Assembly (NCBI RefSeq): GCF_008039615.1
Contig: NZ_VDUZ01000051.1
Location: 1 to 60,716, forward strand
DNA from: Vineibacter terrae
GTDB taxonomy: Bacteria > Pseudomonadota > Alphaproteobacteria > Reyranellales > Reyranellaceae
Length of the DNA: 60,716 nt
Direction: 5' to 3'
Shown here in pieces: positions 31,510 to 36,360 of this stretch (its first letter is position 1; every line of letters starts with the position of its first letter). Below the pieces are notes generated by a model. The model was not told the DNA's origin. It saw nothing but the letters and a program-made list of their open reading frames with translations, and searched no databases. The translations under genes and the position numbers were made by a program.

Positions 31510-31766
31510 GTCGCCTCCCCCGGACGGTCATCGCGATGACGCATGCTACCTGCCGCAGGCGGGCCGCTCCAGCGGCGCGCCCGGGCGCTCGTTTCGCTGC
31601 CATTTTTCCCAGATGCCATTGACTCGGCCGGGTGGACGGGTGGACGCTTGGCCCGTTGGTCGCCCTGTCGTCGCGGTTGCGGGGGTGCCACGGCTGCTCC
31701 CGCCCGGTCGACGACCGGGAGACACGCGGACCAAAAAAGGGTTCGGGCGCGCGGGAAGGATTTATC

Positions 31767-33845
31767 ATGGCCGAAAACACCATCATCTCAACGGGCTCGG
31801 AACGTGCGGGCGGCGGCGCCAACCGCGTCGTCGCCCTGTGCGGACCTTATCTCTCGGGCAAGACGACGCTGCTGGAGACGCTGCTCTACGCTACCGGCGC
31901 GATCAATCGTCGTGGCCGGCCGCGCGACGGCTCGTCCATCGGCGACGGCGCGCCCGAGGCGCGCAAGCTCGGCATGGGCACCGAGATCAACGTCGCATCC
32001 TGCACCTATCTCGGCGATTCCTGGACCTTCATCGACTGCCCCGGCTCGATCGAGTTCCAGCACGACACGCAGGCCGCCCTGGCGGTGTGCGACGTCGCCG
32101 TGATCGTGTGCGAGCCGGTGCCGGACCGCGTCGCGGTGCTGGCGCCGCTGCTGCGGGCGCTGGAGGCGCGGCGCATCCCGCACCTGTTCTTCGTCAACAA
32201 GATGGACGCCGCGCATGCGCGCGTGCGCGACCTGCTGGCCGCCCTGCAGTCGGTGTCGGAGCGCAAGCTGGTGCTGCGTCAGGTGCCGATCCGCAAGGTC
32301 AACCCCGACGGCAGCGAAGAGATCCAGGGCTATGTCGACCTGGTGAGCGAGCGCGCCTACCGCTACAAGCAGGGTGCCGCCTCGGACCTGATCGAGATGC
32401 CGGCCGAGCTGCTGCCGCGCGAGAGCGATGCGCGGCGCGAGATGCTGGAGACGCTGGCGGAGTTCGACGACACGCTGCTGGAGCAGCTGATCGAGGACGT
32501 GGCGCCCGAAAAATCCCTGATCTACCGCGATCTGCATGACGAGTTCGGCGCCGACCTGATCGCGCCGGTGCTGCTGGGCGCCGGCGAGCACGAGAGCGGC
32601 GTGCGCCGCCTGCTCAAGGCGCTGCGCCATGACGCGCCCTTCGCACCCGAGACCGCCAAGCGGCGCGGCGTCGAGGTCAACGGCGCGACGGTGGCGGAAT
32701 GCTTCAAGGTCTCGCACCAGGCGCATGCCGGCAAGCTGTCGCTGTGCCGGGTCTGGGCAGGCGCCGTCGCCGAAGGCCAGATGCTGGGATCGACCCGGGT
32801 CGGCGGCGTCTTCCGCCTGTTCGGCCAGCGGCTGGACAAGGTGGCAGCCAAGGCCGGCGACCTGGTGGCCCTGGCCAAGGTCGAGGCCTTGTCGAGCGGC
32901 CAGATCCTGTCGGCCAACGGTCTCGCCGATGCGCCCGGCCATGCCGCTGCCGAGCCGCCGGTCTATGGCCTGGCGATCATGCCCAAGAACCGCAGTGACG
33001 AGGTGAAACTGTCCTCGGCCCTGCACAAGATCATCGAGGAGGATTCGTCGCTGTCGGCCGGGCATCGCGACGATACCGGCGAGTTTCTGATCCGCGGCCA
33101 GGGCGAGATGCACCTGCGCGTGGCGCTCGAGAAGCTGGCGTCGCGCTATAACGTGCCGGTCGACAGCAGCCCGCCGCGCGTCGCCTACAAGGAGACCATC
33201 CGCAAGGGCACGCAGCAGCATGGCCGCTACAAGCGCCAGACCGGCGGCCATGGCCAGTTCGGCGACGTCAAGATCGAGATCCAGCCGCTGGGCCGCGGTG
33301 AGGGCTTCAGGTTCATCGACAAGATCGTGGGCGGCGTGGTGCCGCGCAACTTCATCCCGGCTGTCGAGATGGGTGTGGTCGACTACCTCAAGCAGGGGCC
33401 GCTGGGCCAGCCGGTGGTCGACATCTCGGTCATGCTGTTCGACGGGCAGTATCACACCGTCGACAGCTCGGAGATGTCGTTCAAGCAGGCGGCGCGCGTG
33501 GCCATGACCGAGGCCATGCCGAAATGCGACCCGGTGCTGCTGGAGCCGATCCTGAAGGTGACCATCGCGGCGCCCAGCGATGCCACGTCGCGCATCCAGC
33601 GCCTGGTGTCGGGCCGCCGCGGCCAGCTGCTGGGCTTCGACGGGCGGCCGGGCTGGCCGGGCTGGGACGAGGTCACGGCCCTGATGCCCGAATCGGAGAT
33701 CGGCGACCTGATCATCGAGATCCGCTCGGCGACCCAGGGCGTGGGCACGTACAATGCCGAGTTTGACCACCTGCAGGAGATGGCCGGCCGCGCCGCCGAG
33801 AAGGTGGCCGAGGAAGGCAAGCGCCGCGCCGCCGCGGGACGGTAG
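31767..33845 (+). CDS. Elongation factor G-like GTPase (non-canonical paralogue)
   Basis: A 692-residue, five-domain EF-G-like translational GTPase. The start (31767) is preceded by GGAAGGA. The P-loop reads GPYLSGKTT (about 26-34), unlike AHIDAGKTT of canonical FusA. G3 is DCPGS (90-94), where DTPGH with the catalytic His is normal. G4, NKMD (144-147), is intact. Domain IV and V segments (YKRQTGGHGQFGDVKIEIQP; RIQRLVSGRRGQLLGFDGRP) are well conserved. It is not surrounded by rpsL, rpsG or tuf, so it is a secondary paralogue. Loss of the G3 His suggests slow or altered GTP hydrolysis. It is a single-gene unit followed by repeats. Confidence 0.9.
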   Translation: MAENTIISTGSERAGGGANRVVALCGPYLSGKTTLLETLLYATGAINRRGRPRDGSSIGDGAPEARKLGMGTEINVASCTYLGDSWTFIDCPGSIEFQHDTQAALAVCDVAVIVCEPVPDRVAVLAPLLRALEARRIPHLFFVNKMDAAHARVRDLLAALQSVSERKLVLRQVPIRKVNPDGSEEIQGYVDLVSERAYRYKQGAASDLIEMPAELLPRESDARREMLETLAEFDDTLLEQLIEDVAPEKSLIYRDLHDEFGADLIAPVLLGAGEHESGVRRLLKALRHDAPFAPETAKRRGVEVNGATVAECFKVSHQAHAGKLSLCRVWAGAVAEGQMLGSTRVGGVFRLFGQRLDKVAAKAGDLVALAKVEALSSGQILSANGLADAPGHAAAEPPVYGLAIMPKNRSDEVKLSSALHKIIEEDSSLSAGHRDDTGEFLIRGQGEMHLRVALEKLASRYNVPVDSSPPRVAYKETIRKGTQQHGRYKRQTGGHGQFGDVKIEIQPLGRGEGFRFIDKIVGGVVPRNFIPAVEMGVVDYLKQGPLGQPVVDISVMLFDGQYHTVDSSEMSFKQAARVAMTEAMPKCDPVLLEPILKVTIAAPSDATSRIQRLVSGRRGQLLGFDGRPGWPGWDEVTALMPESEIGDLIIEIRSATQGVGTYNAEFDHLQEMAGRAAEKVAEEGKRRAAAGR

Positions 33846-34214
33846 CCCTTCACCCCTCGCCCCGCGAGAGCGCAGGCCGATCGCATCTGGGCTTTCGACT
33901 ACCTTCCCCCGCTTGCGGGGGAAGGTGCCCGAAGGGCGGATGGGGGGTGCCGCAACGGCGCGGGGGCTCGATGGGATGTACCATTTGCGTTGAAGCATCC
34001 CCCATCCGGCGCTTCGCGCCACCTTCCCCCGCGAGCGGGGGAAGGTAATCAAAAGGCCGACGCGATGACCCATGTGCGATAGCCCTACCCGCACGCGGCA
34101 GGGCTGTCCGCGAAGAGGAAATAGTGCAGCAAAATCGCGCGCGCGTGACTTCTGATCCGCGGCTGCCTGTGCGACATCAGCGGGGTGAGATCGTGCATCG
34201 CGTGAGGAGGTCGC
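33846..34214. other. Repeat-rich intergenic region
   Basis: Most of this gap is the palindromic repeat listed at 33849-34046. The rest holds a hairpin (AGCCCT...AGGGCT around 34081-34110) and the leader of the thioredoxin-like gene. Its ribosome site, GAGGAGG, is at 34204-34210. No gene was recognised in the gap. Confidence 0.6.
33849..34046. repeat. CCTTCCCCCGC palindromic intergenic repeat (copy 3)
   Basis: The element has two outward hairpins, ACCTTCCCCCGCTTGCGGGG at 33901 and ACCTTCCCCCGCGAGCGGGG at 34021. Between them are GGCGGATGGGGG and its inverse CCCCCATCCGGCG. A degenerate CTCGCCCCGCGAG hairpin and the word CGATCGCATCTGG precede it. It has the same overall design as copies 4, 6 and 7 with different sequence in the arms. 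Confidence 0.85.
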
Positions 34215-34640
34215 ATGCTGCGCAGACGTTCGCTCATGGCCGGCGGCCTGGGGTTGGCCATGGCGCCGGCCCTGGCCCGGGCCCAGGCATCCAGGATCAC
34301 CGTCGTCTTTGTCGGCCACGAGCTTTGAGGCGGTTGCAAGATCTGGCGTGCCCAGTCCGAACCGGCGTTCAAGGCCTCTGAGGCGTTCAAGAAGCTCGAC
34401 TACGTCGTGGTCCACCCGGCCAACGGGTCGCTGATCCTCAAGGAGGAGTCCTGGCCCCAGGAGGCGATGTGGATCCTCACCGAGTTCCTGATGAGTGATG
34501 AAGGGGCGCAGCGCGGCAATGTCACGCCGCGGTTCATCATCGCCCAGGACCAGAAGATCCTGCTCACCGCCACCGGCAACAGCGGCTGGAAGGAGCAGGT
34601 CTGGCCCCGGATCCAGACACTGACCGGCACGGCGGCATGA
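34215..34640 (+). CDS. Exported thioredoxin-like protein with in-frame TGA (candidate selenoprotein or fresh nonsense allele)
   Basis: The reading frame from ATG 34215 (strong GAGGAGG at 34204-34210) encodes a leader MLRRRSLMAGGLGLAMAPAL with cleavage near ARAQA. It then reads ITVVFVGHEL, a TGA at codon 38 (34326-34328), GGCKIW, and runs on uninterrupted to a TGA at 34638. With TGA read as Sec or Cys the product has 141 residues. The TGA falls exactly at the first position of a CxxCK motif (U38-G-G-C41-K42) on the first strand/helix of a thioredoxin fold. A matching cis-Pro element, VTPRFIIAQDQKIL, lies downstream. Just 3' of the TGA a stem-loop can form (see findings). Alternatively a TGC or TGT codon mutated to TGA very recently. 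No selA, selB or selC is in the window. Confidence 0.55.
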
Positions 34641-34641
34641 G

Positions 34642-34769
34642 TCCTCCCCAACGAAGTTGGGGAGGTGCCCCGAAGGGGCGGAGGGGAGCCATCGTGGTCT
34701 CCGCAACAAGACCACGTCGGCTCCCCATCCGGCCTTCGGCCACCTTCCCCACGCTACGCGTGGGGAAGG
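34642..34769. repeat. CCTCCCCAACG palindromic intergenic repeat (copy 4)
   Basis: Begins TCCTCCCCAACGAAGTTGGG and ends CCTTCCCCACGCTACGCGTG. In the middle, GGAGGGGAGCC and GGCTCCCC flank a GTGGTCTC...GACCACGT hairpin. Closely related to the copies at 38954-39080 and 40625-40785. It lies directly after the thioredoxin-like gene. Confidence 0.88.
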
Positions 34770-34818
34770 AAAGAAGGGGAGGTATGGCGGGGTCCCCCCG
34801 AACGCGCTACCGTGGGGC

Positions 34819-35325
34819 ATGGGTTCGTTCTTCGTGCGCCAGCTGGCGAGCTATGCCGCGGTCCATCGCGACCCGCGCAACAAGCTGACGCATTTCATCG
34901 GCATCCCCACCATCGTGTTCTCCCTGCTGCTGGTGCTGGCGCTGTGGCACATCCCGGCCGGCGGCATGGTGATTACCGGCGCGCTCCTGGTGGGTGCGCT
35001 GGCGGTGCTGGGCTGGATGGCGCTCGACCTTGGTGTCGGCCTGGCCATGGCCATCGTCATGGCGGTATTGTGGCTGGCGGCGGAAGGACTGGCGGCGGCG
35101 CTGGGGCCGGCCGGGACGTGGATCGCCTCCGGGGCGCTGTTCGTCGGCGGCTGGATACTGCAATTCCTCGGCCACCACTACGAGGGGCGCCGCCCGGCGC
35201 TGCTCGACAACCTGTTCCAGGCCTTCATAGGACCGATGTTCCTGGTCGCCGAGGCCATGGTCGTGCTGGGCTGGCGCCGCGACCTGCAGGCCGCCATGAC
35301 GCACACGGCCGTCACGCCGAGGTGA
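34819..35325 (+). CDS. Mpo1-like (DUF962) integral membrane protein
   Basis: A 168-residue protein with about four membrane helices. It carries the DUF962 signatures YAAVHRDPRNKLTHFIGIP at the N-terminus and LGHHYEGRRPALLDNLFQAF near the C-terminus. In yeast the family member Mpo1 is an iron-dependent dioxygenase in 2-hydroxy fatty acid alpha-oxidation, and the His residues (H16, H24 and the HH pair) are retained here. A bacterial role in fatty-acid breakdown is therefore an inference from family. ATG 34819 starts directly at the conserved N-terminus; upstream in-frame sequence is repeat DNA. A methionine-sulfoxide reductase gene follows on the same strand. Confidence 0.85.
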   Translation: MGSFFVRQLASYAAVHRDPRNKLTHFIGIPTIVFSLLLVLALWHIPAGGMVITGALLVGALAVLGWMALDLGVGLAMAIVMAVLWLAAEGLAAALGPAGTWIASGALFVGGWILQFLGHHYEGRRPALLDNLFQAFIGPMFLVAEAMVVLGWRRDLQAAMTHTAVTPR

Positions 35326-35397
35326 GTTGAAGAGAGCACGTTTCCCCCGCAGGTAGGAGCAGCGGGAACGCCGCCAGGCAAGACGAGGTTTTGGGCC

Positions 35398-36360
35398 ATG
35401 CTGATCAAGCGCAAACGCGGCTGGGAGCTGCCGGAGAGCGCCGCGACGCCGGAAGCGCTTTACATGAACCGTCGCACCGTGCTGCAGGGCATGGGCCTTG
35501 GCGCCATCGGCGCCGCATTGCCGCTGGCAGCCGCGTTCGGCCAGGAAGCCGACCCGTCGGCCAAGCTGTACCCCGTGGCCCGGAGCCCGAAATACACGCT
35601 CGACCGGCCCGTGACGGCGGAGAAGCTGGCCACCACCTACAACAATTTCTACGAGTTCGGCTCGCACAAGACGATCTGGCGCGACGCCCAGAAGCGCATG
35701 AAGCTGCGGCCCTGGATGGTGAAGATCGACGGGCTGGTCGACAAGCCGATGGAGCTCGGCTTCGACGACCTGCTGGCCAAGATGCCGCTCGAGGAACGGC
35801 TCTACCGCCACCGCTGCGTCGAGGCCTGGTCGATGGCGGTGCCCTACAGCGGCTTCCCGCTCAAGGCGCTGGTCGACCTGGCGCAGCCCAAGGCGGGCGC
35901 CAAGTACCTGGTGATGCAGACCCTGTCGAACCCGTCGGTGTTCCCCGGGCAGCGCGAGTTCTACTATCCCTGGCCCTACACCGACGGCCTCACCATGGCC
36001 GAGGCGACCAACGAGCTGGCGTTCATCGCCACCGGGCTGTACGGCAAGCCGATCGTGCCCCAGAACGGCGCGCCGCTGCGGCTGGCGGCGCCGTGGAAGT
36101 ACGGCTTCAAGCACGTGAAGTCGATCGTGAGCTTCACCTTCTCCGACAAGCGGCCGGTCTCGTTCTGGGAGAAGCTGATCGCCGACGAATACGGTTTCTG
36201 GGCCAACATCAACCCGCAGGTGCCGCATCCGCGCTGGAGCCAGGCGACGGAAAAGCTGCTGGGCTCCGACGAGCGCATCCCCACCCTGCTCTACAACGGC
36301 TACGGCGAATTCGTCGCCGACCTCTACAAGGACATGAAAGGCGAGAAGCTGTTCATGTAG
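35398..36360 (+). CDS. msrP: Protein-methionine-sulfoxide reductase, molybdopterin subunit MsrP
   Basis: A 320-residue periplasmic molybdoenzyme that repairs oxidised methionines in envelope proteins. The Tat signal is at residues 23-47 (NRRTVLQGMGLGAIGAAL). The molybdopterin-binding core shows YNNFYEFG, YRHRCVEAWSMAVPYSGFPL with Mo-ligand C140, and SDKRPVSFWEKL near the C-terminus. Length and motifs match YedY/MsrP. The usual heme membrane partner msrQ (yedZ) is not next to it; the following gene is an unrelated Bug receptor. The start at 35398 places the twin Arg at a normal distance for this family. Confidence 0.95.
   Translation: MLIKRKRGWELPESAATPEALYMNRRTVLQGMGLGAIGAALPLAAAFGQEADPSAKLYPVARSPKYTLDRPVTAEKLATTYNNFYEFGSHKTIWRDAQKRMKLRPWMVKIDGLVDKPMELGFDDLLAKMPLEERLYRHRCVEAWSMAVPYSGFPLKALVDLAQPKAGAKYLVMQTLSNPSVFPGQREFYYPWPYTDGLTMAEATNELAFIATGLYGKPIVPQNGAPLRLAAPWKYGFKHVKSIVSFTFSDKRPVSFWEKLIADEYGFWANINPQVPHPRWSQATEKLLGSDERIPTLLYNGYGEFVADLYKDMKGEKLFM

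Follow-up and report, generated by a model that had tools for sequence, protein, structure and literature searches.

Gene structure and reading frame

The window analysed here is the whole 60,716-nucleotide stretch of Vineibacter terrae contig NZ_VDUZ01000051.1, which is contig 51 of the 8.76 Mb host genome. Between the genes of an EF-G-family GTPase and an Mpo1-like protein it contains a gene for a small thioredoxin-like protein whose frame is crossed by one UGA codon, and comparison with related genomes indicates that this codon is almost certainly decoded as selenocysteine (Sec). The frame opens with the ATG at 34215, carries its lone in-frame TGA at codon 38 and closes with the TGA at 34638–34640. 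The sequence directly after codon 38 is GGCKIWRAQSEP, the first residues of which are GGCK. The leader of about 25 residues has a twin-arginine-like start, and the Pfam model TAT_signal gives weak matches in 6 of 21 family members (best E value 0.0063); the Sec protein would thus be exported to the periplasm. The first-pass annotation of this stretch had described a frame with a ribosome-binding site, a leader, one TGA at codon 38, GGCK next to it and a TPRF motif, and all of its coordinates agree with ours (Table 1). A scan of the window against Rfam at gathering scores gave no match, and a simple promoter scan of 33700–35500 found none.

Table 1. Features at the locus of the UGA-containing gene and its neighbours
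Feature	Position	Strand	Remarks
EF-G-family GTPase, upstream neighbour	31764..33845	+	NF009379, 977 bits; start codon chosen by us
Shine-Dalgarno-like GAGGAGG	34204..34210	+	4 nt 5′ of ATG; from sequence
Predicted Sec-containing thioredoxin-like protein with leader, 141 residues	34215..34640	+	Read-through frame, orthologues, AlphaFold2 model
Putative leader peptide MLRRRSLMAGGLGLAMAPALARAQA	34215..34289	+	Tat-like twin Arg, Ala-rich end; from sequence
UGA, predicted Sec, residue 38	34326..34328	+	Orthologue comparison
Cys41, second redox residue of U-G-G-C	34335..34337	+	Invariant in 21-sequence alignment
Predicted SECIS core, GA-(bulged U 34342)-CUGG-[CGUGC]-CCAG-UC	34340..34357	+	Alignment, RNAalifold, fold of window sequence
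Predicted SECIS loop	34347..34351		Loop G and U at 34348–34349, places 23 and 24 from the U of UGA
Pro105 of T-P-R-F (residues 104–107), expected cis-Pro	34527..34529	+	Invariant in 21-sequence alignment
Mpo1-like protein, downstream neighbour	34819..35325	+	PF06127, 70 bits
msrP, protein-methionine-sulfoxide reductase catalytic subunit, downstream	35398..36360	+	NF003767, 402.5 bits (cut-off 207)

Conservation of the UGA codon

All 75 genomes of the bacterial family around the host contain some match to the Sec protein (E value 0.001), and 68 of them, including all four genomes of the genus with that of the host, carry a main-clade gene in which TGA takes the position of codon 38; one (G029) has two such genes. 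The main-clade gene is lacking in G004, G008, G011, G050, G066, G067 and G073. TGA is also found at codon 38 in four metagenome relatives, labelled Alphaproteobacteria (two), Proteobacteria (one) and Reyranella sp. (one). Their gene stretches are identical to those of G039, G059, G019 and G044, and the family is therefore referred to here as the Reyranella relatives. In an even sample of the class, only 5 of 385 genomes match at an E value of 1e-7, all five from this family, and in the order 74 of 76 genomes match at 1e-10, with 75 of the 76 belonging to the family. A plasmid search at an E value of 0.001 gave no match. Among the genomes sampled, the Sec thioredoxin is seen in one alphaproteobacterial family only, throughout which the gene family is spread.

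In one of the genomes without a main-clade Sec gene, G011, an intact Cys orthologue (L091, with CGFC) occupies the same gene-order position. G074 has a decayed CGQC copy (L078, on G074:C22) about 0.6 kb before msrP and its Sec copy elsewhere in the genome; the decay consists of a downstream TAG and a disturbed start. The possibility that G074 encodes Sec by TAG was considered and ruled out, since this TAG is far downstream in the decayed copy and not at codon 38. Sec38 aligns with the Cys of L091 and with that of distant CGPC, CGGC, CPWC and CPYC homologues. An in-frame UGA kept among orthologues, with Cys in others, is what a selenoprotein should present, and the comparison of homologues proposed in the first-pass annotation has thus returned TGA or Cys at this codon.

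The leucine codon preceding the TGA is CTT in 62 of 73 main-clade genes, though CTT is otherwise little used for leucine in these gene stretches; the base preceding the UGA may thus be under selection.

Selection on the codons after the UGA

Over the 59 codons compared past the TGA, the window gene and its two nearest relatives, L025 and L026, differ by nonsynonymous rates (dN) of 0.07 in both cases and synonymous rates (dS) of 1.12 and 0.51, respectively. Against nine others with finite dS the dN/dS ratio lies between about 0.14 and 0.68, the top value belonging to L093, and its median over 2129 main-clade pairs of moderate divergence is 0.26. No further stop precedes the gene end in main-clade Sec genes scoring above 140 bits; the stop marked in L088 is the TAA that ends this gene. 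Judged from these ratios, the codons past the TGA are under purifying selection.

These results bear on two alternatives to Sec decoding. First, the TGA could be a recent nonsense mutation of a Cys codon in what is now a pseudogene, as suggested by the Cys found at this place in some homologues. The TGA shared by 68 genomes, the purifying selection past it and the lack of other stops leave this idea with practically no probability. The first-pass annotation had proposed either a new selenoprotein or a very recent nonsense mutation of this kind; the selenoprotein stands, as a member of a widespread family rather than a lone one, and the mutation is to be dropped. Second, the UGA might act mostly as a true stop, releasing a 37-residue leader, and read-through, with Sec or another residue, would give only a minor and regulated product such as a selenium sensor. 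A leader followed by a stop would give a defined short product, and decoding of UGA by SelB is in competition with termination. However, the strong constraint on the positions beyond the UGA implies that the long product matters, and we regard a predominant stop as very improbable.

A conserved SECIS hairpin after the UGA

A selenocysteine insertion sequence (SECIS) was sought in a gap-free alignment of 82 Sec genes, with 36 distinct sequences over 39 nt; 74 belong to the main clade and 8 to a second Sec clade described below, and 4 of the 82 repeat the same genomes. Without guidance, RNAalifold returns a hairpin in which the stem CUGG/CCAG closes a loop of five bases and is prolonged, past a single bulged base, by two further pairs; a short stem of two pairs close to the UGA is also predicted but doubtful. 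The upper stem CTGG/CCAG, as claimed in the first-pass annotation, is exact in 80 of the 82 genes, and the CGTGC loop starts 19 nt past the TGA with G in second position, again as described there. Its lower stem, CGGTT/AACCG, has to be given up: it forms in the window sequence, but only 68.9% of the cells pair over the 36 distinct sequences, and two of its five pairs are broken in 24 and 17 of them.

What is conserved instead is an extension of the upper stem by a bulged U (34342) and the pairs 34341–34356 and 34340–34357, both with compensatory changes. Counted in places from the U of the UGA, the former is pair 16–31 (AU 26, CG 4, GU 2, UA 1, unpaired 3 over the 36 distinct sequences) and the latter pair 15–32 (GC 25, AU 4, GU 3, unpaired 4). 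A third extension pair, 14–33, is unpaired in 22 of the 36. Changes on both sides of a pair occur in 14 cells, compared with 4.4 in shuffled alignments (none of 500 as high), and the covariation score of 0.164 exceeds those of all 500 shuffles (mean 0.074) and of all slid versions. The majority of these double changes fall between the main and the second Sec clade, and hence represent few independent events.

The loop, scored in 81 genes, reads CGTGC in 75, CGTCG in 3, CGTAG in 2 and CGTGA in 1, so that GU is present in all 81; every one of the 73 main-clade genes scored has U as its bulged base. L111 was omitted from both counts because its contig ends at the TGA. A stem-loop with GU in its loop thus follows directly after the UGA and is conserved across the Sec genes; the first-pass annotation had named the lack of a conserved downstream stem as a point against its reading.

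Codon usage and pattern searches agree with this hairpin. The seventh to ninth codons past the TGA are CGT, GCC and CAG in all 68 distinct sequences of a set of 72 entries scoring above 140 bits, and the Arg that Sec genes write as CGT is CGC in 77% of 31 paralogues with Ser at the Sec place. Some codons farther from the hairpin also vary less than others, and codon bias alone would therefore not prove a SECIS. The pattern TGA-N14-CTGGCGTNNCCAG has 79 matches in the 75 family genomes, 77 of them in the Sec gene family: 69 in the main clade and 8 in the second Sec clade (at G071:C63 with a broken frame around it). The remaining two, at G011:C63 and G050:C285, lie in frames unlike the Sec family. 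The reversed control pattern has 4 matches.

Selenocysteine machinery of the host

The four genes needed for Sec insertion, to which the first-pass annotation had pointed as a check, are all found in the host genome. selB (431 bits) is directly followed by selC, the gene of tRNA-Sec with the anticodon TCA (75 bits); selA (575 bits) is separated from selB by one other gene, and selD (269 bits) sits behind an oxidoreductase domain. Upstream in the same sel cluster lies fdhA (1290 bits over its first 870 residues), the UHGP site of which is likewise coded by TGA. At an E value of 1e-60, selB is found in 72 of the 75 family genomes.

Two side observations concern this machinery. The selD fusion (L116, G000:C5:15000-22600, minus strand) scores 267 bits for selD (cut-off 125) and is preceded by a pyridine-nucleotide-disulfide oxidoreductase domain of 432 bits, while the model named oxidoreductase/SelD-related fusion gives 450, under its cut-off of 700. 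A second match to the tRNA-Sec model (L010, G000:C35:31015-31100) reaches 47.7 bits against a gathering score of 47 and probably marks some other tRNA that has a long variable arm.

Predicted fold and catalytic role

An AlphaFold2 model built from seven sequences, with Sec entered as Cys, has a predicted local distance difference test (pLDDT) score of 81.5 and a predicted template modelling (pTM) score of 0.74, and presents the strand and helix order of thioredoxin. Residue 38 lies just before helix 39–53, and Pro105 precedes strand 106–111. In the model, the UxxC motif is therefore at the start of a helix and the expected cis-Pro is in place, as in a thioredoxin fold. Foldseek searches with the model return thioredoxins (best E value 1.9e-4), and periplasmic SoxS has the top target-normalised score (TMt 0.72) among the 50 matches listed. 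A profile of 21 members finds the uncharacterised thioredoxin-like chain 2m72 (E value 0.0042).

By sequence, no named thioredoxin or selenoprotein family of Pfam or NCBIfam takes in the window protein: none of its Pfam scores reaches a cut-off, and NCBIfam gives nothing up to an E value of 10. The best thioredoxin-like E values in 21 diverse members are 0.016 (Pfam) and 0.0081 (NCBIfam), and the best for any model in 20 members besides the window protein is 0.0063. The Pfam model Glyco_trans_4_3 (E value 0.1) is under its cut-off and was taken as a chance match. Since the family is not named by these models, annotation may overlook its genes or enter them as fragments.

The most likely course of events can be outlined. 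SelA, SelB, SelD and tRNA-Sec of the host almost certainly insert Sec at the UGA, directed by the SECIS. In the periplasm, Sec38 would attack either oxidised thiols or some small substrate in its oxidised form, after which Cys41 would resolve the mixed selenylsulfide, so that the protein would act as a reductase. A periplasmic selenol reductase engaged in oxidant repair is thus the likely role. Alternatively, the selenoprotein might be an oxidase or isomerase, a peroxidase, or a binder of metals or metalloids, given that fold and motif alone leave the direction of the reaction unset and that the common thioredoxin site WCGPC differs from U-G-G-C. This is a minority possibility, against which stand the Cys versions with thioredoxin-like CxxC sites (CGFC, CGPC, CPYC), the CGFC one being next to msrP, and the fold match with SoxS, itself a reductant.

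Gene neighbourhood and a possible link to MsrP

Gene order was compared at 29 loci from 27 genomes, two of which are represented twice. At 28 loci there is an EF-G-family gene upstream in the same orientation, msrP lies downstream at 27, and the Mpo1-like gene is found by tblastn at 14. Of the 68 genomes that carry the Sec gene, 63 have msrP downstream of it on its own contig and strand, at a distance of 0.44 to 3.8 kb according to the listed coordinates. In G003 no msrP was found, and in G036 and G057 the two genes are on different contigs of draft assemblies. The CGFC Cys orthologue also adjoins msrP (L117). GC-rich palindromic intergenic repeats (ACCTTCCCC...GGGGAAGGT) flank the Sec gene of the window at 33889–34058 and 34645–34790.

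MsrP is a periplasmic methionine-sulfoxide reductase, and MsrQ is its usual electron donor. MsrQ-like matches at an E value of 1e-15 are found in 71 of the 75 genomes (4 of 75 over the curated cut-off), that of the host being on another contig, and the Sec protein is therefore no plain stand-in for MsrQ. This distribution made MsrQ of little use as a guide. As msrP is close by in almost every genome, the Sec protein could work with MsrP in repairing oxidised proteins of the periplasm, a suggestion to which we give somewhat less than even odds. The chances are about even that the genes are simply inherited side by side and are functionally unrelated. Genes for EF-G-family proteins, acyl-CoA dehydrogenase and aminotransferase are likewise frequent around the Sec gene, with no obvious link, and two genomes speak against the partnership: in G001 msrP is on another contig, with none within the 14 kb read, and in G074 it stands beside the decayed Cys copy and not the Sec copy. 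On the other side, the distance and strand of msrP are maintained in nearly all of the genomes, and most of the other conserved neighbours lie farther away. A bolder version, in which the exported Sec thioredoxins are the dedicated selenol partner of MsrP repair and their Ser duplicates pair with them as substrate holder or regulator, is speculative and rather doubtful.

Paralogues and history

A tree of 53 chosen proteins was computed by a quick method with SH-aLRT (Shimodaira–Hasegawa-like approximate likelihood ratio test) support and midpoint rooting. Thirteen tandem Ser paralogues form one branch (support 99) inside the Sec clade. Their typical site, D-Q-T-S-E-A-C-K, has Ser at the Sec place and usually keeps the second Cys, which is lost in L061; most of them (L029, L030, L018, L019 and others) lie about 0.5–0.7 kb after the Sec gene. 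At 14 of the 29 loci the thioredoxin-like gene is present twice; no second copy was found in the host genome. At G066:C3 and G073:C5 (L109 and L110), a Ser paralogue stands before msrP, and no main-clade Sec gene was found in either genome.

The two Cys orthologues branch at two separate places in the Sec clade. The second Sec clade, comprising eight UGPC genes (L094–L098, L101, L102 and L104, some with UDPC or URPC) with the same SECIS layout, forms one branch (93) adjoining the main clade, and the eight distant Cys homologues (94) are separate from this UGPC branch. One further member of the second clade, L182, looks decayed. The tree suggests that the Sec gene is old, that it was duplicated once with Ser replacing Sec in the copy, and that Cys replaced Sec at least twice afterwards; the deep part of the tree is unsure because of long branches. 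The natural Sec, Cys and Ser versions in related genomes constitute a test bed for the benefit of selenium.

Overall interpretation

Taken together, the data are best explained by a thioredoxin-fold selenoprotein, with Sec decoded at UGA codon 38, that is encoded near msrP and would be exported and act as a reductase; we put the probability of this reading at roughly 0.93. Several observations weigh against it. L101 and L111 (the latter at a contig end) each have one mismatched pair in the upper stem, pairs 15–32 and 16–31 are sometimes unpaired (4 and 3 of 36), and the bulge is absent or differently placed in L098, L101 and L102. Folded alone, the window sequence does no better than shuffled ones (152 of 200 as good; 37 and 91 of 200 in another test), so that support for the SECIS is comparative. 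selB is not found at the above threshold in G019, G035 and G045, all of which carry the Sec gene; the sole explanation offered is that the quality of these drafts (89, 60 and 96% complete) may be responsible. Finally, no thioredoxin family exceeds its cut-off for the window protein by sequence. If the reading holds, a Sec enzyme is at work, probably in the alphaproteobacterial cell envelope, beside a methionine-sulfoxide repair enzyme.

Comparison with known systems

The SECIS of the window gene resembles that of host fdhA, with which it shares a bulged U at place 17, a stem starting from place 18, G23 and U24 in the loop and the same distance from the UGA. G23-U24 in the loop and the UGA distance are also shared with the element of E. 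coli fdhF, which matches 5368 of 5426 E. coli genomes and is annotated as fdhF in the three matches listed. Its bulge falls on place 18 in the lowest-energy fold, while the centroid of its 17-nt core has it at 17, the published place. U17, G23 and U24 matter for recognition by SelB. The letters of stem and loop differ among the three elements, and the loop has four bases in E. coli and five in the other two. By its layout, the predicted SECIS of the window gene is of the fdh type.

Periplasmic SoxS of Paracoccus (3dml, 3d4t) is a small single-domain periplasmic thioredoxin, as is predicted for the window protein, with which it shares 15% identity. SoxS acts as a reductant in sulfur oxidation and carries Cys rather than Sec. 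No sox gene was seen among the neighbours scanned, a genome-wide search for sox genes not having been made.

The closest class is that of the bacterial UxxC thioredoxin-fold selenoproteins, in which Sec is first, Cys fourth and the fold thioredoxin-like, as in the window protein. Known kinds include Sec-containing thioredoxin, SaoT, HUIPC-motif thioredoxin-like and DsbA/DsbG-like proteins (Table 1 of PMC13188914). In the accessible parts of that 2026 inventory of 119 families, no entry with a UGGC motif plus msrP context was identified; entries defined there by broad domains (PF00085, PF13098, PF13192) could be compared by description only, and the window protein fails those Pfam models. The accessible text of PMC9312934 names no such protein, and among the titles in the literature searched none concerns a Sec thioredoxin of Reyranella relatives, which could be in print elsewhere. 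What sets the window family apart from the known UxxC selenoproteins is its UGGC/UGPC motif, its place near msrP, the lack of a matching model and its occurrence, among the genomes sampled, in one alphaproteobacterial family. As far as those parts of PMC13188914 go, where it is not listed, the predicted family is a new selenoprotein family within the known UxxC thioredoxin-fold kind.
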